Source: a virus. Taken from it: a DNA stretch of 42,465 nt. Under the pieces are notes generated by a model. It saw only the letters and a list, made by a program, of their open reading frames with translations. It made no database searches and was not told the origin of the DNA. The stretch is taken from the IMG/VR virus record IMGVR_UViG_3300047358_000424, positions 1 through 42,465 of that record. One strand, written 5' to 3'. Position numbers and translations under genes: made by a program. Shown piece by piece: positions 7,018 through 42,465 of this stretch (position 1 is its first letter; each line of letters opens with the position of its first letter).

Positions 7018-7602
7018 TTATTGGGTTATTTTTGCTCGTGTTCCTTGGTAAATACCAAAGGCTTCACGAGGTAGGGATTCTGCCAGCTCTGGGTCGTCCA
7101 GAGCGTCACGACAGAAAGCTTTTAGAGTTGCATGATGCACACTGACTTTTGCATCAGTATCCACACCAAACGAATCTTTAACTAAGTTTTGTATCTGAGT
7201 GACGAGTGCGTCTTGACCTCGATCCAGTGTGATACTTAGTTGATTCTTGATAATACTGTCGTTGTTGGTTTCACGCAACCATTCGAACGCAGTCTGAGGA
7301 TCTTTGATTCTTGCATCAACGAAGTCGTTAAGTTGAATCTTAGTCCCGTCATCCAGCTGGATAAGCTGAAGACCGACTTGCTGCATTTGGTCGGGAATCA
7401 ACTCTTCTGCAATCTTTTTACGATTTGTTTTGAGTGTGCTGATTGTGGCTTCTTGTTCTAAGATTTTTCGATCTAAGTCACTTAGAGCATCGCCGAGTTG
7501 TTTGATTTCCTGTAGTCTATCTGCGGGAACGGATTTTGTATCCAAGTCTTTGATAGATGCAACAGGGATGATATCGCTTTCTTCTAGTAGTTCGTCATTC
7601 AT
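7018..7602 (-). CDS. Hypothetical phage protein, 194 aa, coiled coil
   Basis: A 194-residue acidic protein. Residues of about 27-72 form a coiled coil (DALSDLDRKILEQEATISTL). The C-terminal segment SVHHATLKAFCRDALDDPEL ... LPREAFGIYQGTRAKI is a pattern I have seen in proteins next to phage ssDNA-binding and polymerase genes, but no function is established that I can name. The gene sits between polymerase and the ssDNA-binding-like gene with short gaps, so a role in replication or recombination is likely. No catalytic motif seen. Confidence 0.75.
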   Translation of the reverse strand: MNDELLEESDIIPVASIKDLDTKSVPADRLQEIKQLGDALSDLDRKILEQEATISTLKTNRKKIAEELIPDQMQQVGLQLIQLDDGTKIQLNDFVDARIKDPQTAFEWLRETNNDSIIKNQLSITLDRGQDALVTQIQNLVKDSFGVDTDAKVSVHHATLKAFCRDALDDPELAESLPREAFGIYQGTRAKITQ

Positions 7603-7626
7603 TGGTTGTTGAGTTGGTTGTGGTTA

Positions 7627-9507
7627 TTAGCACCAAGTTAGTCCGAGATCAATATCGGCAATAACTGGCACTTTGAGCGGTATAGCATTTTCCATAATAG
7701 TTTTCAAGTCTAAACTGTCTTTTTCTGAGTCAACCATAGCGTTGATCTCATCGTGAACTGGTAATCGCATGTCAAAACCAGCTTCGTAAGCATCAACCAT
7801 TGCTTTTTTTGCTTGGTCTGCGGCACTTCCCTGAATCAATCTGTTAAGTGCTTTGCTGGTATATGCTCTTTGAAGTGGTTTGTTTGGGTATTTTCCTTTT
7901 GCCATTCCGTAGCCTTTTACTGCTGTTTCTTCGAAGCTTGGTGTCCAGAAGTCAAATCTGGCTCTGCGTCCTAAAATTGTTTTAATGTATCCTCTGGAAC
8001 TGGCAATGTTCATAGCATTGTCAAACAAAACTTTAAGGAATGGAGCTTCACTGTTAAACTTGCGCATTGTTTCTTTGCACGCTTCTTCAGATATGCCGAG
8101 GGTTGTCGCCATCTTTTTCATACCCATTCCGTAACTAATACCCAAGCATAGCATTTTGCAGGTATCGTATGGCAGGCCTGTTGTTTTTTCGAAGAAAGTG
8201 TATAGCTTTTCTCCCTGCTCAAAGGCTTGTTTAGCTTCTAGGGCTTTTGGCAGGGGACGTCCAAATTCCCCAATAAGGGCGTAATGTACTTGGAGGCGAG
8301 GTTCTTGTGAACTGTAATCTGCTTTACACCAGAGTTTGTCGGGCTCTGCAATATACAAGGCTCGGATTGCTTTTCCAATATCACTTCGCTTAGGGACTTG
8401 TTGCATGTTCGGGTTGGCTGAAGATAGCCTCCCTGAACGAGTCCCACCAGTGTCCGATGCAACCTGTTTGAAGTCTGCGTGGATTCGTCCTTTATAATTT
8501 TGGTTGAGAATGATGTCTTCAATAAAGACTTTTCTGAGTCTGTTAATGCTTCTTGCTTCATGAATTAGTTTAACTTCAGGATGATTGCAATTTGTTAGAA
8601 AATCTTTAGATACGGATGGGTTTCCTTTTTCTGTTTTTGGAACAACAAGACCCAGCTTTTCTATGTGATGTGCTAGCTGAGCTGGAGACCAAATATCTAG
8701 GTTTGAGAAATGCTTTTTTAGTTCTTTTTCCTTTGCTTTAAGTTTATTGTTTAGTTGCTCCGCGCCATCAATGTTTACAGGAACACCTTTCATTGTCATA
8801 TGAACAAGGACTGGGGTTAGTTTACATTCTAGCTCCCATACAGGCCACAAGCCTTGCTCTTTTAGTACAGGTATTTGGTGCTGGTATACGTCCCAAGTAT
8901 TCCTTGCATCAATCTCAGCATATTCACCTACGTATCTGGCTGGAAGTTTCCACATACCGCCTTTGGGATCTACTCCGTAAAGCTTTGCGGCCTTTTTTAA
9001 GTTGTCTTCAAACTTAGTTCGCTTGAGATACTTTTTGGATAGATTGTTTAGGCTGTATGAATACTGCTCTTCATCAATCAGTGCTTCTGCAATTTGCACA
9101 TCTCGGACTGGGCATGTGATATCTATGCCTAGAACTTTAAGCCAACCAAGATCATATGCTGCGTTAGCGAACAGTATTTCAGTGCTGTTCTTGATTACGT
9201 TTTGTATGTAATTACAAATTAGATTTTTATCTAAGTTGTCTCCGCCTTGATGATCAATTGGTAGGTAAACCTCTTGGTGTTCGTCAGCTATTGCAATGCC
9301 GACTACTTTTCCTTCTCCTCGTTTGTAGGATGGTCCTAGCTTTTTTAGGTTTGGATCGCAGGTTTCTAAGTCAATTGCGATGATTTTGCCAAAACTTGGT
9401 AGCTGTGCTGGTGGTCTCCAGTTGCAGCTGGGTTGCATTTGTTTTGGTAAATCTAGTGCGGGTTTTTCGCTTCGTTCCAGCTGAAAAAGGTCTATTTGTG
9501 TTGGCAT
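7627..9507 (-). CDS. polA: DNA polymerase, family A (exonuclease plus polymerase)
   Basis: The replicative polymerase, 626 residues. The 3'-5' exonuclease domain has ExoI IDLETC (D46, E48), ExoII NAAYDLGWL (N115, D119) and ExoIII YAEID (Y196, D200). The polymerase domain has motif A DYSSQEPRL (D397), motif B KMLCLGISYG (K451 to G460) and motif C HDE (585-587). No 5'-3' exonuclease domain is present. Residue L455 aligns with E. coli Pol I Phe762, so this is a Leu762-type enzyme. Motif A reads SSQEPR instead of the usual SQIELR. The stop is followed by the 194-aa gene, and the start lies directly after the 90-aa gene, so expression is coupled to the cassette upstream. Confidence 0.97.
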   Translation of the reverse strand: MPTQIDLFQLERSEKPALDLPKQMQPSCNWRPPAQLPSFGKIIAIDLETCDPNLKKLGPSYKRGEGKVVGIAIADEHQEVYLPIDHQGGDNLDKNLICNYIQNVIKNSTEILFANAAYDLGWLKVLGIDITCPVRDVQIAEALIDEEQYSYSLNNLSKKYLKRTKFEDNLKKAAKLYGVDPKGGMWKLPARYVGEYAEIDARNTWDVYQHQIPVLKEQGLWPVWELECKLTPVLVHMTMKGVPVNIDGAEQLNNKLKAKEKELKKHFSNLDIWSPAQLAHHIEKLGLVVPKTEKGNPSVSKDFLTNCNHPEVKLIHEARSINRLRKVFIEDIILNQNYKGRIHADFKQVASDTGGTRSGRLSSANPNMQQVPKRSDIGKAIRALYIAEPDKLWCKADYSSQEPRLQVHYALIGEFGRPLPKALEAKQAFEQGEKLYTFFEKTTGLPYDTCKMLCLGISYGMGMKKMATTLGISEEACKETMRKFNSEAPFLKVLFDNAMNIASSRGYIKTILGRRARFDFWTPSFEETAVKGYGMAKGKYPNKPLQRAYTSKALNRLIQGSAADQAKKAMVDAYEAGFDMRLPVHDEINAMVDSEKDSLDLKTIMENAIPLKVPVIADIDLGLTWC

Positions 9508-9780
9508 TTAGTTTGAATCAGAGCTATTAGTTGCGTTAATGATTTCATTTTCTTTTATCAACCTGTTGATCGCAAGCCAAGGTTTAGACCTCAGCTCTAG
9601 GTTGATCTCTGATTCGCTTTTTACTCGGAGAAGTCCGTTCGCGAAGCCCCATTCTGCTGCTTTTCTGTATTCTGCAAATGGATCTCGTCTTAAAATAGAC
9701 TTGATTCCTTTTTCTACAATAGCAAGTGTTTCGCTGACTGTGTTTGTTTCTGGGTCGTATATTGGTGTTAATTTGTCCAT
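9508..9780 (-). CDS. Hypothetical protein, 90 aa
   Basis: A 90-residue protein with two predicted helical segments and a Ser/Asn-rich end. Its stop abuts the polymerase start and its start overlaps the VRR-NUC gene end by 13 nt, so it is embedded in a tightly packed replication operon. No motif or family is recognised. The spacing, and the lack of any other frame through this stretch, support a real gene. Confidence 0.68.
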   Translation of the reverse strand: MDKLTPIYDPETNTVSETLAIVEKGIKSILRRDPFAEYRKAAEWGFANGLLRVKSESEINLELRSKPWLAINRLIKENEIINATNSSDSN

Positions 9781-10178
9781 GTTTTTGTGTAGTTGATGAA
9801 ATCAGTAAAGCCTTTTTTGTCTAATGAAAAAATAACTTCTTTTCCGTTTTCTTCTATGCCTTCTTTTCCAATAGAGCTGGCGTCAAACATCATCATTATG
9901 AATCTCTTTGACTTTGGGTAGGCAGAGAGTGTGATGCACTTGTTGACTGAATCTTTGAGGACAACATTGCTTTTGATTTGGAAAGCGGCTTGTTCTGGTC
10001 GCAGCTTTTTGGTCTCAAACTTACTTTCAATAAGAAGTACTTTGTTTGGTAGAATAGCCAAGATATCTGGAACGCCATTCGATGTAGTAGTTTCAATGCG
10101 CTGAATGACAGCTTTTGTGTCAAGGCACTCAAAAAACATCCTCCGTATCCAGCGATTGAAATCTTTCTCTGTTGTCAT
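9768..10178 (-). CDS. VRR-NUC domain nuclease
   Basis: A 136-residue stand-alone VRR-NUC endonuclease of the PD-(D/E)xK superfamily. Visible motifs are GVPD (35-38), ExK as ESK (51-53) and RPEQ (60-63). Stand-alone phage VRR-NUC proteins are Holliday-junction or structure-specific nucleases. I chose the ATG at 10178 because the frame further upstream lies wholly inside the JAB gene. That start overlaps the JAB gene by 50 nt and has no Shine-Dalgarno; an ATG at 10205 is an alternative. It is the junction between the ubiquitin-like cassette and the replication genes. Confidence 0.85.
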   Translation of the reverse strand: MTTEKDFNRWIRRMFFECLDTKAVIQRIETTTSNGVPDILAILPNKVLLIESKFETKKLRPEQAAFQIKSNVVLKDSVNKCITLSAYPKSKRFIMMMFDASSIGKEGIEENGKEVIFSLDKKGFTDFINYTKTWTN

Positions 10179-11307
10179 CAAGCAATTGGTAGTCTCTGAG
10201 ACCATGTTTGATGTCTTCGATGGTGTTGTCAACTCCGTTGTATTGAGATGTTTCTTTGAGAAACACTTTAGTGAGTTTGATAGCTTCTTTACCTTCTTTT
10301 GTGCTAAGGAACTCTTCGCTATCGTATAGCGCGCTAAGGTCTGAGGCAGCTTTTGAATCTTCGGTTTCTCCTGTGTAAAGCTTGTGATAGCCTTCGTGAT
10401 CACCGATGTGGTTATAGTAGCCAATAAGAATGTCTTCGTATTCATAATCAGTAAGGATTAGGTTTACCAACTCAGATGCTATGTCTGTGTGGGTTTTTTC
10501 TTTTTCTTTTTTTTTAAATTTTGGTGGTGTGTTGAAACTTGTTCCAGTGTTTGCAATTCCATCTGTTCCATAGTGCCAACCAAGTTGATGTGAGTGGATG
10601 TTGTTTGAGTATTTACTCGTGTATGTTTTCTTTTTTACATTAGACATGGTCTCAAACTTGCACTTTTTGTGGTTAGTGGGTAGAGTTACAATGTCTTTTG
10701 TGTGTAGATAATTTATAAGGTCACGTTCAACTTTGTCGGGTATAGCCGCTGTTTTCTTAAAAGGACTTTCTGCTTGCTCGATGTAAGTGCCTGCTTCGAT
10801 TTCTGAGTGACAACCACCAATAGTGATTCGACAGTGGATATCAAAGTTATCAGGTTCATCCATGTTACCAATTGTAAAATGAATGCCTTCACGGTTTTCT
10901 TCGTCGGACTCATCTGTTCCTGATTGAAATGCCGATACCGAACAGTGATGGTGGATGGTTCCAAACATAACATCTGGATATAACTTACGTTGCTTCTTGT
11001 AATCTGGGTGGTCTGGTAGTGAGCTAACAGACATACCATGTGTCTCTTGTGGTGGAACCCACCAACTCCAGGGTGTATCGCTGGTGTCGTCGTAGAATAG
11101 ATACACAAGTGTTTCTGAATCAAACTCATCGTATGAGTGTTTCATGAAACTAAGGATCTGCTTCCACATGGATCGTGGAATCTTTTTACCTTTAAACTCA
11201 GGGATAAGGTTTTCTGTGTTGTTTACTTCAATCTCTTGATATGTTGTAAACATATCGTTGTCTACTTTGTTGTAAAGCTTGTTGTTATGGATTATATGCT
11301 GAATCAT
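10129..11307 (-). CDS. JAB/MPN (JAMM) metalloprotease-like protein, putative deconjugase
   Basis: A 392-residue protein with an intact JAMM zinc signature: H119-x-H121, seven residues, S129-x2-D132 (HHHCSVSAFQSGTD). The strand-turn sequence EGIHFTIGNM follows, as in prokaryotic JAB domains encoded beside E1-like enzymes. The JAB domain spans roughly 40-180. The remaining 210 residues are helical and charged and unassigned, ending in a segment with DIKHGLRDYQLL. JAB proteins remove or mature ubiquitin-like modifiers, as eukaryotic deubiquitinases and CBASS Cap3 do. It starts 4 nt after the E1-like stop. With the E1, E2 and Ubl genes it completes a conjugation/deconjugation set. The target is unknown. 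Confidence 0.88.
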   Translation of the reverse strand: MIQHIIHNNKLYNKVDNDMFTTYQEIEVNNTENLIPEFKGKKIPRSMWKQILSFMKHSYDEFDSETLVYLFYDDTSDTPWSWWVPPQETHGMSVSSLPDHPDYKKQRKLYPDVMFGTIHHHCSVSAFQSGTDESDEENREGIHFTIGNMDEPDNFDIHCRITIGGCHSEIEAGTYIEQAESPFKKTAAIPDKVERDLINYLHTKDIVTLPTNHKKCKFETMSNVKKKTYTSKYSNNIHSHQLGWHYGTDGIANTGTSFNTPPKFKKKEKEKTHTDIASELVNLILTDYEYEDILIGYYNHIGDHEGYHKLYTGETEDSKAASDLSALYDSEEFLSTKEGKEAIKLTKVFLKETSQYNGVDNTIEDIKHGLRDYQLLDDNRERFQSLDTEDVF

Positions 11308-11311
11308 ATTA

Positions 11312-12043
11312 TTATACGGCTTGTTGTTCTTTGTATAGCTTAGTTAGGTCGGTTACTGTGATTGTTTGCATACGCGAAAACGTGCTTTGGAACTCAATAG
11401 GTAGGTATTGCGTTGCAACCAAATCGTTAACATCTATAGACAATCCGTGCCACTGCCATAGCAAATAGTTGGCAAAACTAGCTGCTACTTGATTTGCGAT
11501 AGCAAGCTGTGGTTCTGAGTCAAGTGCGATGCCCTGACAGCTTAGTGGGCTTCCTGACCTGTCTGTGGCAATCTCAGGATAACGAGCTATTGGATCAATC
11601 ATAGGATAGGAGTGCTCCAGCTCTGGGTTGTAGTAAAACGCTTGACTGGTGTGGTATTCGTTTGCGCATACAACAATTGGTTTGTTGTATTCTTTGGCTG
11701 CTTCGATTGCAGCTTTCCGAGCTGGGTGGTTGTCAACTGCGCAAATGATTACGTCGGCTTTTGAAAAGTACACCTTGTATTCCGTGCTCAGCATACTTTC
11801 GCTGAAATATTCACGAATAGCGTTTCCTTCGTCTTTTCGGAAGTTGTATTGTTTAAGCAAAGCTACTGCTTTATACTGACCGACTGCGTTGTTACGAAAC
11901 AGTTGTCTGTCAAGGTTGTGCTTTTCTAGCTTATCGCCGTCAATGATTGTTGCTGACAGGTCGAAGCTGTTTTTAAGAGCGGGAAGCATGTAGCTTGTTA
12001 CGCCGCCTGCTCCGATGATTACTGCATTTAGTGATGGTTTCAT
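11312..12043 (-). CDS. E1-like (ThiF/MoeB family) adenylyltransferase
   Basis: A 243-residue Rossmann-fold E1-like enzyme, about the length of ThiF. The nucleotide loop is GAGGVTS (11-17). The ATP/Mg motif DGDKLEKHNLDRQ follows (D35, D37, N43, R46), then GQYK with K58 and CAVDN with D104. Cys at 101, 126 and 169 are present; C169 in SCQGIALDSEPQ sits where ThiF-type enzymes of PRTRC-like systems have a conserved Cys, and is the best thioester candidate. E1 enzymes adenylate the C-terminus of a ubiquitin-like protein. It lies between a 113-aa gene and the JAB gene in the same operon as the Ubl and E2-like genes. Confidence 0.9.
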   Translation of the reverse strand: MKPSLNAVIIGAGGVTSYMLPALKNSFDLSATIIDGDKLEKHNLDRQLFRNNAVGQYKAVALLKQYNFRKDEGNAIREYFSESMLSTEYKVYFSKADVIICAVDNHPARKAAIEAAKEYNKPIVVCANEYHTSQAFYYNPELEHSYPMIDPIARYPEIATDRSGSPLSCQGIALDSEPQLAIANQVAASFANYLLWQWHGLSIDVNDLVATQYLPIEFQSTFSRMQTITVTDLTKLYKEQQAV

Positions 12044-12075
12044 AAGTGTGGTGGTATATTAATCTTTGTTAGTTT

Positions 12076-12417
12076 TTACGGTAATGATGATAGTTTTCTG
12101 TAAAGACAATACCCTGTTTCATCTAAAGGTTTGTCATATGCGTCTATGTAGCGGAGTATTGCACCACGCTTTCTACCGCAATCTGGGAGATCTTTTGCTA
12201 CGATCTTTAACAGTATGCGTAATCGGTGGTCTGAGAGACCATGTTTGATATCATAGGTGTCTTTTATAAAGCCTTGATACCGTTCTTCAGCAGCTGCTGT
12301 TCTTGACAGCTCGGCTGGTGAAAGCTTATAAGCGTGTCTAAGGTCTTCGTGAAGATGAGCACACGAAGAGTTACACTCTTGAAGTGCTTCTACTATGCTT
12401 GTTGACGATTGAGCCAT
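12076..12417 (-). CDS. Unknown protein of the ubiquitin-like cassette, 113 aa
   Basis: A 113-residue helical protein with no recognised domain. It overlaps the end of the E2-like gene by 25 nt and lies 32 nt upstream of the E1-like gene, so it is a core member of the cassette by position. Residues of about 50-65 (FIKDTYDIKHGLSDHRLR) resemble the C-terminal segment of the JAB protein (DIKHGLRDYQLL), and a 15-bp DNA stretch is shared. The Cys residues are not spaced like a RING or other treble-clef finger. It could be an adaptor or substrate-recognition subunit; that is inference. Confidence 0.72.
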   Translation of the reverse strand: MAQSSTSIVEALQECNSSCAHLHEDLRHAYKLSPAELSRTAAAEERYQGFIKDTYDIKHGLSDHRLRILLKIVAKDLPDCGRKRGAILRYIDAYDKPLDETGYCLYRKLSSLP

Positions 12418-13265
12418 GATGAAAAGTCTAGGATTGCTTCGTGTTTAGTTTCTAAGAAGAAAGTTGGGTGGTCTTTAACAAGATCAGAGTCACCGCTCCT
12501 TGGGATGCTTAGACCTGACCTATTAAACTTTAAGTAGCCAGCTTCTGCTTCTACATTTCTAAGATCGTTGTTACATAGGCTTGTGTTTAAGTCTGTTACA
12601 CTTCTTTTAATCAACTCCAGTGGTTGATCTGCATATATGTCCAAGTCTCTTGTGTCTCTGGGAAAGTTTTCGCCAGCGCAAATTTCACCACTTTCATACA
12701 CATTTGGTAGATTAGGGGCGTAGGATGTTTTTGTCGCGGGATCGTATACGAAAACATAAGGACTGCCTACTTTGAAAGCTGAGTTGTTTTCAAACGACAT
12801 GCCGAACATAAAGAACAAACTTAGGCCGTCGTTTTGTGGACACCATCGGACTGGGGAAGAAAGGCTATTTCCGCGTATAATCTCTGTTCCTTCTACTACA
12901 TTCCCATTTTCGTAGGGAATGCATAAACGGTATGGTCTTTCTTCTTCAGGGTTATCTGAAACGTTTCTTTCCAGATCTGCTCCGCTGAAGTAGAAGAAGG
13001 GTGCACGAACAAAATAGTAAATCATATTTTGAGATGAGGATGTGTCTCCTTTTACGTAACATGCACTATTTATTAAATAATGAAGGGTCTCTGATTCGCT
13101 TGATAGTGTAAGATACCTCGCAAACGGAGTTACGTAGAAAGTCGGCTTTACTTTTACAGAGGCTAGAGCATCTTCTTGCCTAGCAAGGATTGATTCTACA
13201 ACGGTTCGTCGATAGAAATTTCCATCATTTTTTAAGATATATTCCTGATGAGCTGCGGTGGACAT
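12393..13265 (-). CDS. E2-like protein (prokaryotic E2 family B / PRTRC-B-like)
   Basis: A 290-residue protein with the ATG start at 13265; an in-frame TTG lies ten codons upstream. The segment PVRWCPQNDGLSLFFMFG followed by SPYVFVYDP and then LPNVYESGEICAG (186-198) matches the layout of prokaryotic E2 family B / PRTRC system protein B. It also strongly resembles the eukaryotic E2 active-site motif HPNV..GxxC. C196 is the candidate catalytic cysteine. The N-terminal 130 residues are less conserved beta-rich sequence. E2s accept a modifier from E1 as a thioester. The assignment rests on motif and gene context, since overall similarity to known E2s cannot be measured here. Confidence 0.75.
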   Translation of the reverse strand: MSTAAHQEYILKNDGNFYRRTVVESILARQEDALASVKVKPTFYVTPFARYLTLSSESETLHYLINSACYVKGDTSSSQNMIYYFVRAPFFYFSGADLERNVSDNPEEERPYRLCIPYENGNVVEGTEIIRGNSLSSPVRWCPQNDGLSLFFMFGMSFENNSAFKVGSPYVFVYDPATKTSYAPNLPNVYESGEICAGENFPRDTRDLDIYADQPLELIKRSVTDLNTSLCNNDLRNVEAEAGYLKFNRSGLSIPRSGDSDLVKDHPTFFLETKHEAILDFSSWLNRQQA

Positions 13266-13376
13266 GATTGGCTTTGGTTGTTGATTAAAAAACAATCAGT
13301 GGATGACTGCATCCTTTTCCTCTTGGGGCTGATTACCTCCCTCACGCTGTTGCGACTTTACTATTAAGTTAGCAAA

Positions 13377-13607
13377 CTATGCCTTGCTGGATGCTTGTTG
13401 CTCCAGCGTTATAGCACTGTAATTACTGATGTATTCGTTGTGGTCGAGAGTCTCGCCACCCGAAACGGCATTGACTGATTCTGGTGCAGACAAAGCTGCA
13501 AGAATCGAACGATCTGTGAGGATGTCACCAACCGTTGTATTTTCGTCGAAGCTACGAGTAACTGTGTTAGTTAGACCGTAGCGGAGGGTTACTGTTGTTT
13601 GCGCCAT
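13377..13607 (-). CDS. Ubiquitin-like beta-grasp modifier protein
   Basis: A 76-residue protein, the length of ubiquitin. The pattern is a beta hairpin (TTVTLRYGLTNTVTRSF), TTVGDIL leading into a helix, then shorter strands (VNAVSGGETL, SAITLEQQ), which is the beta-grasp layout. It ends QASSKA with no terminal Gly-Gly, and the stop is clear, so either the end is processed or the chemistry differs. It is the first gene of a run also holding E2-like, E1-like and JAB genes, which is the main support for its role. The leader is A-rich without Shine-Dalgarno (AATAAAAACAAACATAAAT). Fold-level call only; PRTRC protein C is a possible relative. Confidence 0.72.
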   Translation of the reverse strand: MAQTTVTLRYGLTNTVTRSFDENTTVGDILTDRSILAALSAPESVNAVSGGETLDHNEYISNYSAITLEQQASSKA

Positions 13608-13768
13608 ATTTATGTTTGTTTTTATTGTTCTTGTTGTGTTTTTGACTCACATGAGCCCAAAAAATATCTAATTCTACTTGACATGTTTAACTTTACCAAG
13701 CACGCTGTTTGCTACAGCTAGGTTGTTTTGGCATAGTTGTTATCTGTTGTTCTATTGTTCCTTGGTTA

Positions 13769-13799
13769 AGCAGTCTGTCCTTCGGGGCAGGCTGCTTTT
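13769..13799 (+). terminator. UUCG-loop hairpin with T-run (plus orientation)
   Basis: A 12-bp stem, AGCAGTCTGTCC (13769-13780) with GGGCAGGCTGCT (13785-13796), includes two G-U pairs when read on the plus strand and a TTCG tetraloop, then TTT. This is a textbook plus-strand terminator, although the genes on both sides lie on the minus strand. Confidence 0.7.
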
Positions 13800-13808
13800 C
13801 TAAAGTGG

Positions 13809-13848
13809 GTAGCCCTTGATCCTTCGACCAAGACCAAGGGCTACTTTT
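13809..13848 (+). terminator. Second tandem hairpin with T-run (plus orientation)
   Basis: A perfect 10-bp stem, GTAGCCCTTG (13809-13818) with CAAGGGCTAC (13835-13844), is followed by TTTT. It lies 10 nt after the first hairpin. The 300-bp gap 13608-13907 holds these two hairpins and the A-rich leader of the Ubl gene; I see no convincing gene in it. Confidence 0.65.
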
Positions 13849-13907
13849 AGTAGTAGTTCTGATGCCGTCTCCGATTATCACTGTCTCTTAAAACTCTGAA
13901 CGTATAT

Positions 13908-16204: not shown

Positions 16205-16250
16205 AGTATATATTGTGGGTTTGGTTTTTGGATTTGATTAACACCAGAAA

Positions 16251-16275
16251 GCAGGGGGACTTCTCAGCCCCCCTA
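16251..16275 (-). terminator. G5/C5 hairpin after the 75-aa gene
   Basis: On the minus strand GGGGGCTGAGAAGTCCCCC is followed by TGCTTTCTGG. The stem is at least five G-C pairs with a small loop. It lies just after the 75-aa gene stop and is partly preserved in the decayed duplicate near 16976-16995. Confidence 0.6.
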
Positions 16276-16285
16276 CCGTTTAGGC

Positions 16286-16513
16286 TTAGCAGGTCACGAT
16301 GTAGGTGTCCACCCAGCCATTCTCCCAAATGACTTTGTCGACTGTTATGGACGTCCCCCGCTTGAGGGCCGTGTCGTGCCATACTTTCATATACTCACCA
16401 GACTCCGTTCTCACGGTGGTTGGGTATTCACCCTCTGTGGACTTTGCGCCGCAGGCGACAACGTCTCCTTGATATTGGGTTACTTGGACTTCGGATTTTG
16501 TAGCTTTTTTCAT
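16286..16513 (-). CDS. Hypothetical protein, 75 aa (first gene of the minus block)
   Basis: A 75-residue protein starting MKKATKSEVQVTQYQGDVVA, mostly beta-strand by pattern, ending WENGWVDTYIVTC. No family recognised. It is the first gene transcribed leftwards from the divergent region, with TATAAT (minus strand, 16523-16518) five bases before its ATG. A -10 so close to the ATG implies a very short or absent leader. A decayed copy lies inverted at 16732-16962, so this gene was duplicated and one copy lost. Confidence 0.75.
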   Translation of the reverse strand: MKKATKSEVQVTQYQGDVVACGAKSTEGEYPTTVRTESGEYMKVWHDTALKRGTSITVDKVIWENGWVDTYIVTC

Positions 16514-16584
16514 ATGTATTATAGGTTTCGTGAGCGGAATTGCTCGTCCCGAAAGAATCTGTCAAGGTGGAGATTCGCTAAAAT

Positions 16585-16603
16585 TGCATCGGAATCCGAT
16601 GCA
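16585..16603. promoter_or_regulatory. 19-bp palindrome, possible operator
   Basis: TGCATCGGA-A-TCCGATGCA is a perfect palindrome with 9-bp arms around one base, in the spacer between the two arms of the inverted duplication and upstream of the first leftward gene. A related half-site (TTCCGATA) occurs near 16652. It has the form of a dimeric repressor site. Confidence 0.5.
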
Positions 16604-16669
16604 CGTCGACCCGCTTAAGATAAATGGACATGGGTTGTGGACGCCCACAGGTTCCGATACTTGCGGGGT

Positions 16670-17010
16670 GCGAATACTACCTTTACAGATTCTTTAGAGC
16701 AATTCCGATCACGAAAACTATAATACATTCGATGGGAAAAAAGCTTCAAAATCCGAAGTCAAAGTGACATGGATCCAATGTCAAGGAGACGTTGTCGGCT
16801 GCGGCGCAAAGGCTGACTAGGAATACCCAACCGCCGTGAGAACGGAGTCTGGTGACTGATGACATGGCACGTCACGGGCCTCAAGCGAAGAGGGGGACGT
16901 CCGTGACAGACGGCATTAGTGCTTTGCGAGAAGGGCTTGGGCACCTACGTCGATGAGCCGCTTAGCCTAAACGGTAGGGGGGCTGAGAAGTCCCCATGCT
17001 GTATGGTGTT
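16670..17010. repeat. Inverted duplication, right arm (decayed)
   Basis: This is the plus-strand counterpart of 16578-16240. It keeps CTATAATACAT, the coding body and the GGTAGGGGGGCTGAGAAGTCCCC hairpin region, with scattered substitutions and small insertions. Confidence 0.88.
16732..16962 (+). pseudogene. Decayed inverted copy of the 75-aa gene
   Basis: The sequence is alignable from its ATG to the position of the parent's stop with the gene at 16513-16286, but it is broken. Two extra bases after the ATG shift the frame. In the parental frame a TAG follows CGAKAD and two TGA codons follow TESGD, with more indels after. Residues such as SKSEV, QGDVV, CGAK and EYPT can still be read. It is a clear pseudogene on the opposite strand from its parent. 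Confidence 0.85.
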
Positions 17011-17421
17011 TGGGGGAGGTTTGGTTAGTGCAAATGCTTGTGGAGTAAGGTGTTGCGATTGTGGAATGTATAGATAGGCCGCCTTGTTTGTCGCGTTCGG
17101 GTGGGCGTGAGCCAGAAGCGGAGACAAAGTTCTGATAGCCAAGGGTTTAGCGCGTCACTGTTGCCCGCTTCGTGGGCTGTGGGGTCTGGAGGCGCATGAA
17201 GAGAAGGTCAACGTTCGAAGTTCCGAGGGTCCGAAGGAGCTGCGTTGCATTAGCAAGCCGACGACTCCTAATCGACACAGGAAACTTAGGCCCCCACTGG
17301 GGGAAACGAATCGGTGACGAAACAAGGAGTCCCTACCTGCAAATCCAATTTTCAATTTTTGGGATTTCGGGTGATTTAGTGCACAAGTGTTCAGTGGAAT
17401 TGGCAATTACTGCTAAATCTG
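17011..17421. other. Non-coding stretch, no gene seen
   Basis: About 410 bp with no convincing gene on either strand; the open frames here lack family features and consistent codon use. It appears richer in G and C than the flanking regions. Small hairpins are visible, for example CCCCC-ACT-GGGGG at 17291-17303 and one around the TTCG in GCCCGCTTCGTGGGC near 17163-17177. It may hold decayed sequence, a structured RNA or a packaging or replication site; I cannot decide. Confidence 0.5.
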
Positions 17422-17667
17422 TCACACTTATCACACTTGCATCACACTTTTTTGAGCTAAGTGTGACTTATTAAATGGTACCTTTATCAACGACTTACGT
17501 AATCTGTCACACAAATCACACTTTTTCTAACCCCCTAACGTTTACTTGTAACAGACCCCCAAAAAAAGTGTGATTTGTGTGACAGATTCCATAAGTGCTT
17601 AATAACTATATAATAAAGTTAATCACACCCCCCCAAAAAAAGTGTGATACAGGTGTGATAAGTGTGA
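17422..17667. repeat. Iteron-like array of TCACACTT / AAGTGTGA octamers
   Basis: Twelve octamers close to TCACACTT or its complement start at 17422, 17431, 17442, 17459, 17507, 17516, 17566, 17575, 17623, 17640, 17651 and 17660. They fall into three groups, each with one or more inverted pairs. A longer direct repeat, CCCCCAAAAAAAGTGTGAT, occurs near 17556 and 17629. The array lies in the divergent control region just upstream of the structural operon. This form fits binding sites for an origin protein or regulator. Confidence 0.85.
17501..17588. promoter_or_regulatory. 26-bp perfect inverted repeat within the octamer array
   Basis: Arm 17501-17526 (starting AATCTGTCACACAAATCACA) is the exact reverse complement of 17563-17588, with a 36-nt spacer. 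Each arm contains two octamers. It could form a long cruciform or RNA hairpin, or position proteins symmetrically. Candidate replication origin, packaging site or operator. Confidence 0.8.
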
Positions 17668-17672
17668 CACGC

Positions 17673-36896: not shown

Positions 36897-37529
36897 ATGG
36901 CTAATATTACAGTATCTTCCTCCGTTGATACCTTGCTTAGATCCAGCGATACCGTTGGCATCAGGGGTGCGGTAAATTCTCCTTACACGGTTTTTATGAC
37001 CGACAGCGGAGGAACAGGTGGGATTAATAACAAGCTGCAAATAGAGGACTTCACTACGATTACGAGCAGCGACGGGATGCAGTATATCGACGTAAAGGAG
37101 GTTAGCATCGGGTCAAACGTGACATCTATTGGCAGCTACGCTTTTAGATATGGGTTCAATACCAGCAATACGCAACGTGATGTAACTATTCCAGACTCCG
37201 TTACTTCCATCGGGAGTGCTGCTTTCGACTACTGCACTTATTTGACTAGCGTCACCATAGGAAACGGCGTGACTTCGATTGGCAGTTATGCTTTCAGCTA
37301 CTGCAGTTCCCTGACCGACGTCACCATTGGTTCAGGAGTAACGGCAATTGGCAATTACGGGTTCAGCAGTTGCTCTTCCTTGGCGACCATCCATTGCCTA
37401 GCAACGACTGCCCCATCACTGGGTTCACTTGCGTTTTACTCCGCTGCAGCTACGGAAATTCATGTCCCCGTTGGAGCAACAGGCTACGGGACGACATACG
37501 GCGGTCTGACCGTTGTCTATGACCTATAG
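36897..37529 (+). CDS. BspA-type leucine-rich repeat protein (LRR_5)
   Basis: A 210-residue protein with about four BspA-like repeats of roughly 23 residues (VTIPDSVTSIGSAAFDYCTY; LTSVTIGNGVTSIGSYAFSY; LTDVTIGSGVTAIGNYGFSS) between residues 65 and 165. The N-terminus (residues 1-60) and the end (EIHVPVGATGYGTTYGGL) are beta-rich and cap the solenoid. BspA-like LRR proteins are bacterial and protist surface adhesins. In this genome it lies between small virion-like genes and the sulfotransferase, so a fibre-associated binding protein is likely. It may have been acquired from a host. Confidence 0.88.
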   Translation: MANITVSSSVDTLLRSSDTVGIRGAVNSPYTVFMTDSGGTGGINNKLQIEDFTTITSSDGMQYIDVKEVSIGSNVTSIGSYAFRYGFNTSNTQRDVTIPDSVTSIGSAAFDYCTYLTSVTIGNGVTSIGSYAFSYCSSLTDVTIGSGVTAIGNYGFSSCSSLATIHCLATTAPSLGSLAFYSAAATEIHVPVGATGYGTTYGGLTVVYDL

Positions 37530-38330
37530 ATGAGCAAAAAGCTACACTTCGTATCTGGACTCCCTAGAGCTTGCTCGACGCTGCTCTGCAATCTCCTTGC
37601 GCAGAACCCAAGGGTTCACGCTACGCCTACGAGCGCATTGCATGAAATCGGCTATATAGCGAGACAAGTATTCCAAACCGAAGAAGCGAAGGCAGTGGAC
37701 CAGAAGAATGTTCTGGAGCCTATGTATCTGGACTACGTCAAGGCTGGGTGCGAAAACGCTTTTAACACCATCACTGACCGACCAGTAGTGGTTGACAAGT
37801 GCCGTTCTTGGATTGGCCACCTCGACCAGTTGTTCAAGGTATGGCCTGACGCAAAGGTGCTTGTTCCTGTTCGGGATATTCGTGGCGTTATTTCCAGCAT
37901 GGAAAAGAAGCGTCGCCAGCATCCAGAGGTCTTCAGTGGAATCGAAAAACAGAATCCGCAGAACTGGACAACGCTCGAAAAACGGGTTCACGGATGGCTC
38001 CAGACTCCTCCGATTGGAATCGCCATCGAACGCTTGCACGAGGCAAAGGAGCGATTCGGAGACAAGCTTTTGTTCGTTCACGCCGAGGACTTAGCAGAGA
38101 AACCTCAAGACGTTATGAATAAAGTCTGGGGGTATCTAGGCGAGGAACCTTTCATCCATAATATCTCTAACGTGGAGCAATATACTCAGGAGTATGACGT
38201 TGGTTTTCCTTACGGCGACCACATCATTCGCAGCCAAGTTGAACCGCTTGTTCAGGATTGGGACGAGGTGCTGGGTGATCGACTCTCCGAACAGCTCAAC
38301 AGCAAATTTAATTGGATAAACAAATTATGA
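37530..38330 (+). CDS. Sulfotransferase family protein
   Basis: A 266-residue P-loop sulfotransferase. The 5'-phosphosulfate loop is SGLPRACSTLL (9-19) and the 3'-phosphate motif is LVPVRDIRGVISS (111-123) with R115 and S122/S123. It would transfer sulfate from PAPS to a hydroxyl or amine. The acceptor is unknown; candidates are host surface glycans or phage virion components. The start follows the LRR gene stop directly, and the end overlaps the chaperone-like gene by 4 nt (ATGA), which ties it to the fibre region and not to metabolism genes. No PAPS-synthesis gene is present, so PAPS must come from the host. Confidence 0.9.
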   Translation: MSKKLHFVSGLPRACSTLLCNLLAQNPRVHATPTSALHEIGYIARQVFQTEEAKAVDQKNVLEPMYLDYVKAGCENAFNTITDRPVVVDKCRSWIGHLDQLFKVWPDAKVLVPVRDIRGVISSMEKKRRQHPEVFSGIEKQNPQNWTTLEKRVHGWLQTPPIGIAIERLHEAKERFGDKLLFVHAEDLAEKPQDVMNKVWGYLGEEPFIHNISNVEQYTQEYDVGFPYGDHIIRSQVEPLVQDWDEVLGDRLSEQLNSKFNWINKL

Positions 38331-39304: not shown

Positions 39305-39733
39305 ATGCCCGCACCCCTATTAGCAAAAGCAGCAGTTGCGTTAACTACAGCAGCCCGATATGGAAAAAAAGCACACAGTGCATACAAAACTGTTAAAGCC
39401 TCACGTAAAGTACAGGCAACTAAGAAAGCTGCTAAGAAAGCTGTTAAAGCAGCTAAAGAAAAAGGTGTACCCGCTGCTAAAAAGGCAGCCAGAACGTCCG
39501 CAGCCAAAGCACGTAAAACATTTAAAGCAACTAAGAAAGCTGCTAAAGAAAAAGGCGTACCCGCCGCTAAGAAAGCTACTGAGAAAGCTGTTAAAGCAGC
39601 TAAAGAAAAAGGTGTACCCGCTGCTAAAAAGGCAGCCAGAACGTCCGCAGCCAAAGCACGTAAAACATTTAAAGCAACTAGCGACTACATTCGCAAGAAG
39701 CGAAGGACTGCTAAAGTAAACAAACTTAATTAA
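39305..39733 (+). CDS. Histone H1-like Lys/Ala-rich protein
   Basis: A 142-residue, very basic protein dominated by AAKKA and KAAKEKGVPAAKKAARTSAA motifs, like the C-terminal domain of histone H1 or bacterial Hc1/AlgR-type proteins. Residues 45-76 and 94-125 are the same sequence, encoded by a 99-bp exact repeat (39435-39533 and 39582-39680). It should bind nucleic acid non-specifically and might condense DNA in the head or in the infected cell. The antisense frames over it are composition artefacts. Confidence 0.85.
   Translation: MPAPLLAKAAVALTTAARYGKKAHSAYKTVKASRKVQATKKAAKKAVKAAKEKGVPAAKKAARTSAAKARKTFKATKKAAKEKGVPAAKKATEKAVKAAKEKGVPAAKKAARTSAAKARKTFKATSDYIRKKRRTAKVNKLN
39435..39680 (+). 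repeat. 99-bp exact direct repeat inside the H1-like gene
   Basis: 39435-39533 equals 39582-39680 with no mismatch, offset 147 nt (49 codons), so it is in frame. A third diverged AAKEKGVPAAKKA unit lies between. Exact identity points to a recent duplication or continuing homogenisation. Confidence 0.92.
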
Positions 39734-41873: not shown

Positions 41874-42062
41874 TCAGCTTATAGCCCCCCCCTCGTCCTT
41901 GTCAAGCTCGACATTATCTGGATGGTGGCCCGCTGCAATTAACAGGCGACGGCAGAGTTCAACAACGTCCGATGTGCTGGAGTCCCCGTGGAACTCGATA
42001 CTGATTTTGCGGAAATCGGCGTATGCTGATTCCGTTTCGTATGTTATTGTATCTGTTTTCAT
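41874..42062 (-). CDS. Hypothetical protein, 62 aa
   Basis: A 62-residue acidic protein starting MKTDTITYETESAYADFRKI. Its ATG overlaps the stop of the tandem-repeat gene (CTATGA), giving a coupled pair. Strand-helix layout; no family recognised. Confidence 0.68.
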   Translation of the reverse strand: MKTDTITYETESAYADFRKISIEFHGDSSTSDVVELCRRLLIAAGHHPDNVELDKDEGGAIS

Positions 42063-42465
42063 AGTTCCTTTAATTGATACTTCTTACCGTCCACCTCAAT
42101 GACCTTACCGTTGCAGGACTGGCTCCGTGGTGTGCCTCGTTTGTAGCCATCGCTGTCCTCACGGTAAGTTACGTTACCATCTTCATCGTATTCACGCTTA
42201 ATCCAGTAACCCCTGCTGTTCTCGTAGTAGGTCTCTTTACCGTTGGTATCGTATTCACCCTTAATCCAGTAGCCACTACTGTCCTCGTAGTAAGTCTCGT
42301 TACCATTGGAATCGTATTCCCCCTTGCCCCAGAAGCCCTCGATGTTCTCATAGTAAGTCTCGTTACCGTTAGAATCGTATTCAATCTTATACCAGTAGCC
42401 ATCGCTGTTCTCACGGTAAGTTTCGTTACCGTTGTCATCGTATTCACCCTTCCACCAGTAGCCAG
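42059..42465 (-). CDS. Tandem-repeat protein, C-terminal part (gene continues across the contig joint)
   Basis: This is the C-terminal part of the 169-aa repeat protein whose start is at position 230. Reading down from the contig end, further 21-residue units follow (EYDSNGNETYYEDSSGYWIK; EYDTNGKETYYENSRGYWIK; EYDEDGNVTYREDSDGY). A unique tail then ends in GKVIEVDGKKYQLKEL and a TGA overlapping the next ATG. About six units in all, each 63 bp. Bases 42339-42465 duplicate 1-127. Confidence 0.85.
   Translation of the reverse strand, partial: GYWWKGEYDDNGNETYRENSDGYWYKIEYDSNGNETYYENIEGFWGKGEYDSNGNETYYEDSSGYWIKGEYDTNGKETYYENSRGYWIKREYDEDGNVTYREDSDGYKRGTPRSQSCNGKVIEVDGKKYQLKEL
42339..42465. repeat. 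Terminal direct repeat (contig overlap), right copy
   Basis: Identical to bases 1-127; see the left copy. Removing one copy and joining the ends restores a single open frame for the tandem-repeat protein. Confidence 0.93.

Follow-up and report, generated by a model that had tools for sequence, protein, structure and literature searches.

Ubiquitin-like conjugation in bacteria is known mainly as an anti-phage defence. The cyclic-oligonucleotide-based antiphage signalling system (CBASS) uses such conjugation against phages (PMC10097602). Another arrangement, type 6d, combines a ubiquitin-like protein (Ubl) with a C-terminal Gly, an E2 with a Cys and a downstream His, an E1, a JAB protein with an extra N-terminal α+β domain carrying a conserved Arg and Trp, and a rapidly diverging helical protein with conserved charged residues (Iyer et al., 2006; PMC1779556). 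From matching parts we equate type 6d with the cassette that large plasmids carry under the name PRTRC (ParB, E, C, F, B, A, ThiF), compared here through PRTRC-type regions from eight plasmid records. A related cassette occupies positions 10129-13607, minus strand, of the IMG/VR viral record IMGVR_UViG_3300047358_000424 (the window, that is, the whole 42,465-base stretch analyzed). We consider it a phage-encoded reversible ubiquitin-like protein-modification system, with a probability of roughly 0.7. Its parts, in gene order, are as follows.

13377..13607, minus strand: Ubl, a predicted ubiquitin-like modifier of 76 amino acids (aa) with a K75-A76 end and no other lysine (AlphaFold/Foldseek, homologue alignment)
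13266..13376, minus strand: gap of 111 bases between the Ubl gene and the ATG of the E2-like gene (hairpin/terminator scan)
12393..13265, minus strand: E2-like protein, 290 aa, with LPNVYESGEIC, N188, C196 and N232-x-D234-L235 (PF14460, invariant residues)
12076..12417, minus strand: fast-evolving 113-aa protein with an invariant basic block, G81-RKRGAILRYI (alignment; dN/dS, the non-synonymous to synonymous substitution ratio)
11312..12043, minus strand: E1/ThiF-like adenylyltransferase, 243 aa, candidate catalytic C169 (PF00899, TIGR03736, invariant residues)
10129..11307, minus strand: putative JAB/JAMM metallo-isopeptidase, 392 aa, E65-H119-H121-S129-D132 (TIGR03735, Prok-JAB, hhalign, invariant residues)

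All five open reading frames (ORFs) lie where the preliminary description of this sequence had placed them, in the same order and on the minus strand, and the motifs it named are present: GAGGVTS, D35, D37, K58 and D104 in the E1, H119-x-H121-x7-S129-xx-D132 in the JAB protein and LPNVYESGEIC with C196 in the E2-like protein. It had overlooked C169 of the E1, E65 of the JAB protein and the K-A rather than G-G end of the Ubl. Family matches (for the E1), synteny in dozens of IMG/VR contigs, purifying selection and near-invariance in 40-64 homologues place these motifs beyond chance. Its proposal of a complete phage set for Ubl conjugation and removal is well supported by the Ubl fold, the E1, the JAB protein, synteny, the lysine-free tag and the placement of a terminator.

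The Ubl is predicted to have the ubiquitin fold. In a Foldseek search of the PDB with its AlphaFold model (pLDDT, the per-residue confidence score, 87.3), the matches listed are all ubiquitin, SUMO, other Ubl domains or variants of these, at probability 1.00, as expected of the β-grasp protein first proposed. The best is the ubiquitin of Caldiarchaeum bound to its JAMM protease, from an archaeal cellular system in which the JAMM enzyme removes a C-terminal tail from the precursor and also splits conjugates (PMC6043591); that ubiquitin ends in Gly-Gly. Pfam gave no convincing match among 25 members of the phage family. K75 and A76 are invariant in 42/42 phage Ubls, which fall into two groups: those of group A stop at K-A, and those of group B mostly continue into variable tails. 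These tails after an invariant K-A mirror those of PRTRC_C, where K-G is invariant and 3/7 sequences carry tails. The group A Ubl body holds no lysine in all listed sequences but four, which have one each. Early proteins of the window average 7.9% lysine. For the window alone, 74 residues would lack lysine by chance with a probability of about 0.002; the clade sequences are related and do not count as independent tests. Because its body is lysine-free, the Ubl could not tag itself except at K75, and from the near-lysine-free group A tag, single tags would be expected rather than lysine-linked chains. A further arrangement was seen in a Cloacimonadota metagenome-assembled genome (MAG; L091, 3785-4240), where two tandem Ubl domains each end in HDKG, with JAB, E1 and E2 genes downstream; it reads as a poly-Ubl relative with K-G ends.

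Sequence comparisons support the family assignments of the E1 and JAB proteins well. The E1 matches Pfam ThiF (PF00899) at 8.7e-16, and its best NCBIfam match by E-value is PRTRC_ThiF (TIGR03736; 2e-13), although its score of 50 bits lies far below the cut-off, 144.75. Profile-profile comparison with plasmid PRTRC_ThiF gives 8e-21, and the top chains in a PDB profile search are the catalytic subunits of SUMO- and NEDD8-activating enzymes. The E1 retains its ATP site. D35, D37, R46, Q47, K58, D104 and C169 are conserved in its homologues; C169, a candidate thioester cysteine, is invariant (57/57) and corresponds in alignment to the SCS cysteine that is invariant in PRTRC_ThiF. In the JAB protein the candidate catalytic Glu, E65, is present in 64/64 sequences, with H119, H121, S129 and D132 invariant or nearly so. 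It matches PRTRC_A at 6e-4 (TIGR03735) and at 2e-6 by hhalign, and 8/17 homologues match Prok-JAB. Its N-terminal region has an invariant W48 and a near-invariant R107, possible counterparts of the conserved Trp and Arg of the type 6d N-terminal domain (JAB-N).

The E2-like protein was the less certain part. Prok-E2_D (PF14460) is matched by 8/27 homologues (best 1.3e-5), the window protein itself falling below the cut-off, and a profile match to PRTRC_B spans 23 columns (6e-6). The motif around C196 reads PN[VI]xxxGxIC; N188, C196, G198, N232, D234 and L235 are invariant (N188 and C196 in 51/51), and a PROSITE-like E2 core pattern finds 65/103 family ORFs against 2/~11,900 others. In the AlphaFold model (pLDDT 88.7; predicted template modelling score 0.81), strands at 149-184 are followed by N188, C196 and a helix at 215-228, a strand-loop-helix order no more than compatible with a canonical E2, where strands lead into the active-site Asn/Cys loop and a helix of ~14 residues. 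The motif itself is similar to HPN...C, the active site in canonical E2s, and has the same Asn-Cys spacing, a lead and not a fold test. A further fold search, of a viral library, found one uncultured Caudovirales protein (E 9.5e-5), which is functionally uninformative. Direct protein searches of viral contigs and isolate phages with the E2-like protein gave no matches, the family being too divergent for this; its members were located by way of the loci for E1 and JAB. Both the E2 and JAB genes are split into two ORFs in contig 3300046169_000041 (L010/L037 3313-4133 and 5140-6268), these frameshifts being real or sequencing errors. The 113-aa protein, with its invariant block, is conserved in group A only. 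It is possibly an adaptor or a specificity factor of an E3-like kind, and comparison with the accessory proteins of group B, small and large, revealed no relation.

The gap after the Ubl gene offers a further clue. A scan that covered the gap and 60 bases of the E2 reading frame in 46 related loci found a strong intrinsic terminator (a hairpin and T run) directly after the Ubl gene in 23/46. The hairpins mostly have energies of -20 to -31 kcal/mol, and mononucleotide shuffles pass in 6%. The terminator occurs in both groups with differing stem sequences, and in several loci it is the sole or strongest such site over 10-14 kilobases (kb). So placed, it would yield more tag than enzyme. The lysine-free body, the K-A end with its group B tails and this terminator may be read as signs that the Ubl genuinely modifies proteins. 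We also weighed a riboswitch-like leader between Ubl and E2 but abandoned the idea, conservation being poor and Rfam support absent; the Rfam scan of the window returned nothing at gathering scores. Just upstream of the Ubl gene, at window positions 13700-13860, two strong hairpins (13796 and 13844) resemble plus-strand terminators and are possibly a control element or a terminator.

Several results weigh against a tagging system. No E3 or target was identified for the cassette, and biochemical work on close relatives was not found in the literature. Ala rather than Gly is the last residue of the Ubl, whose profile-profile similarity to PRTRC_C is not significant. In the window the strong terminator is missing, and a weak hairpin (13301-13314) precedes a T run. 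The PDB search with the E2-like model gave no match at E<=0.001, UBC being absent among the hits listed, and the E2 core profile found chance hits only in the PDB and no E2 chain. The preliminary description had staked the E2 call on a UBC-like fold. The C196 motif does match Prok-E2_D and is invariant, but for the confident 290-aa model the PDB offered no UBC match, and the identity, weaker than it was stated there, would rest on that motif, the PRTRC_B profile match, invariance and synteny. Could the Ubl instead be a sulphur donor of the ThiS/MoaD kind, with the ThiF-like E1 activating it, JAB maturing it and the "E2" unrelated? The nature of the E1 and the E2-like model without a UBC match are in keeping with this, and sets of Ubl, ThiF and JAB with metabolic genes are known (PMC1779556). 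We nevertheless think it unlikely: no rhodanese, sulphur or cofactor enzymes were recognized near the cassette, the Ubl ends in Ala rather than GG, the set always includes a separate protein whose E2-type motif holds an invariant Cys, and the lysine-free Ubl body would go unexplained.

Scans with the E1 and JAB proteins recovered 75 viral loci, some being overlapping pieces of one contig. All 75 have JAB; E1 was found in 70, E2 in 65, the Ubl in 54 and the 113-aa protein in 51, with gaps mostly at contig ends. Every contig with a polymerase at least 66% identical and enough upstream sequence carries the full set; ten loci with polymerases 34-39% identical, a few of them short, lack it. The cassette is a core set of a clade of uncultured marine phages, constant rather than patchy. 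Group B comprises viral contigs L011 and L063-L076, most of 42-57 kb, with the order Ubl-E2-small protein-E1-extra gene-JAB; PHROGs gave no structural matches on the group B record G008. The extra gene between E1 and JAB (~190-310 aa; L011 6663-7589, L063 6063-6917 and equivalents) has a recurring G.C.YS..R.G-like motif, and no relation to the 113-aa protein was found. JAB also occurs in 15 bacterial genome contigs, mostly Verrucomicrobia MAGs, the longer of which also carry Ubl, E2 and E1. MAG contigs may be misbinned, and any group B host read from them is tentative; one Opitutus contig has aspartokinase and homoserine dehydrogenase genes ~25-30 kb from the cassette, which fits an integrated element.

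Such kin in MAG contigs and on plasmids recall the suggestion of Iyer et al. (2006) that mobile type 6 cassettes serve as weapons of one element against another (PMC1779556), here by tagging and inactivating competing phages or plasmids. This seems highly improbable for a cassette that is constant within its clade; moreover, no integrase or lysogeny gene was recognized in the window phage, and any gain would be limited to a short infection. Among the isolate phages of a collection of 50,697 records none has the cassette, E1 matches there being partial and below 40% identity. Nor does MW202510 (L078), the nearest database relative by terminase, have it; beside its polymerase, at 7372-10614, are nucleotide-metabolism genes annotated as thymidylate kinase, pyrimidine hmase and deoxycytidylate deaminase. 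No report of a phage-encoded Ubl-E1-E2-JAB set was found in literature full text, most subscription journals and preprints being outside reach, so an earlier mention is possible.

Purifying selection acts on each of the five genes (median dN/dS 0.08-0.41). By a simple counting method, in which overlapping contigs make pairs non-independent, the medians are 0.05 for the polymerase, 0.08 for E1, 0.16 for Ubl, 0.18 for JAB, 0.35 for E2 and 0.41 for the 113-aa protein. The parts expected to touch targets evolve fastest, which fits changing targets, though possibly also relaxed constraint. Fast evolution, as in E2 and the 113-aa protein (0.35 and 0.41), is also seen in arms-race proteins, and the E1 has weak similarity to CBASS E1-E2 models; given the anti-phage use of conjugation by CBASS, JAB might strip host CBASS or Bil tags, with Ubl, E1 and E2 as decoys and no tagging by the phage itself. 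A decoy would hardly need all of E1, E2 and Ubl with their active sites intact, and the cassette belongs to the core replication block rather than to an accessory locus, leaving this a minor possibility.

How, then, does the phage-encoded tagging system relate to described ones? With 6d/PRTRC it shares a stand-alone Ubl with a K-[G/A] end and tails, a Prok-E2_D-type motif, a separate ThiF-like E1 with a Cys, JAB and a fast-evolving extra protein. It differs in order (Ubl-E2-x-E1-JAB, not C-F-B-A-ThiF), in that no ParB, E or F was recognized among neighboring ORFs, and in the K-A end where PRTRC_C has K-G. No invariant His follows the E2-like Cys as in type 6d, N232-x-D234-L235 standing instead; in plasmid PRTRC_B a downstream His is found in most, the Deinococcus protein lacking it. 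The phage E1s form a separate clade: in an IQ-TREE phylogeny of 37 E1s, with a midpoint root and several long branches, PRTRC is one clade and the phage and MAG sequences lie on the other side (100/99). On this evidence the phage set appears to work like 6d/PRTRC and to be a sister lineage, not a member. CBASS Cap2/Cap3 has E1 and JAB chemistry in common with it, but the CBASS E1-E2 models are fused, whereas the phage has separate E1 and E2 and its own Ubl, with no CD-NTase seen nearby. The Bil system (BilABCD) follows the same four-gene logic of Ubl, E2, E1 and JAB; its BilA carries a pair of Ubl domains, and its E1, the pseudodimeric BilD, one inactive and one active adenylation domain (PMC11354881), in contrast to the single 76-aa Ubl and single-domain 243-aa E1 of the phage. 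Among the kin first named, the PRTRC type is the closest, and CBASS and Bil are not. Phage lambda TAPI/TAPK also pairs a phage-encoded Ubl with JAB, but lacks E1 and E2 and belongs to tail assembly rather than replication (PMC1779556).

In the proposed mechanism, JAB would trim residues after K-A, group A Ubls being already mature. The E1 would adenylate the carboxyl of the C-terminal Ala and take the Ubl onto C169; C196 of the E2-like protein would accept it and pass it to target lysines, the 113-aa protein helping to choose targets; and JAB would take the tag off again. We infer thioester transfer, lysine targets, tail trimming and early timing from the Ubl fold, the E1 and JAB families, invariance, synteny and selection. 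Replication or recombination proteins, of host or phage, are tentative candidates for targets early in infection, the choice being a guess.

The genes that follow the cassette are listed below.

9768..10178, minus strand: VRR-NUC/Holliday-junction-resolvase-like nuclease (PF08774 2e-4, phrog_5702 7e-5)
9508..9780, minus strand: 90-aa protein, function not assigned, conserved next in line (ORF list, synteny)
7627..9507, minus strand: DNA polymerase A, 626 aa, downstream of the cassette (PF00476 1e-54, phrog_17 1.7e-102)

The cassette is a tight operon that runs into this nuclease and the DNA polymerase within the replication block, with the Ubl gene alone set apart by its 111 bases. The E2-like gene, read as 290 aa from ATG 13265 (alternatively 300 aa from TTG 13295), shares 25 bases with the 113-aa gene. 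Only 4 bases separate E1 from JAB, and the JAB gene runs 50 bases into that for VRR-NUC, which in turn overlaps the 90-aa gene; the 90-aa gene abuts the polymerase. Early expression is plausible from this position. The phage had been called T7-like, which its terminase, portal, capsid and tail-tube genes (recognized by PHROGs and homology) bear out, but its replication genes are not those of T7, and a search run without a positive control found no T7-type RNA polymerase.

Elsewhere in the window, a large imperfect inverted duplication (16240-17010) has arms of ~300 bases with blocks 82-97% complementary and ~150 bases between them; one arm contains a 75-aa ORF (16286-16513, minus). A second inverted repeat (17420-17669) has 107-base arms at 79%. 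Both sit at the junction of leftward early and rightward late genes and could be an origin, a control region or an assembly palindrome. The 142-aa repeat protein encoded at 39305-39733 (+) is rich in lysine and alanine and has the look of a histone H1. By eye, 36897-37529 (+) reads like BspA-type leucine-rich repeats and the directly following 37530-38330 (+; 266 aa) like a sulfotransferase. An open-ended frame at 42059-42463 (-), cut by the window end, has short MORN-like tandem repeats of the GYWWKGEYD..NGNETYYEN type.

The cassette suggests that these phages may chemically tag proteins during infection. We lean slightly towards a core, vertically kept viral system, in which the phage clade and a second group would tag proteins during replication with an Ala-ended, almost lysine-free single-unit modifier, with a regulated excess of tag and a deconjugase of their own. 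If a complete set is indeed a core gene block of phages, the roles familiar from bacterial defence would be reversed, with viruses owning the machinery. PRTRC/6d systems, for which no tested function was found, would become open to study in a viral genome that is small and offers few candidate targets. The switch from K-G to K-A together with the lysine-free tag gives clear biochemical predictions.

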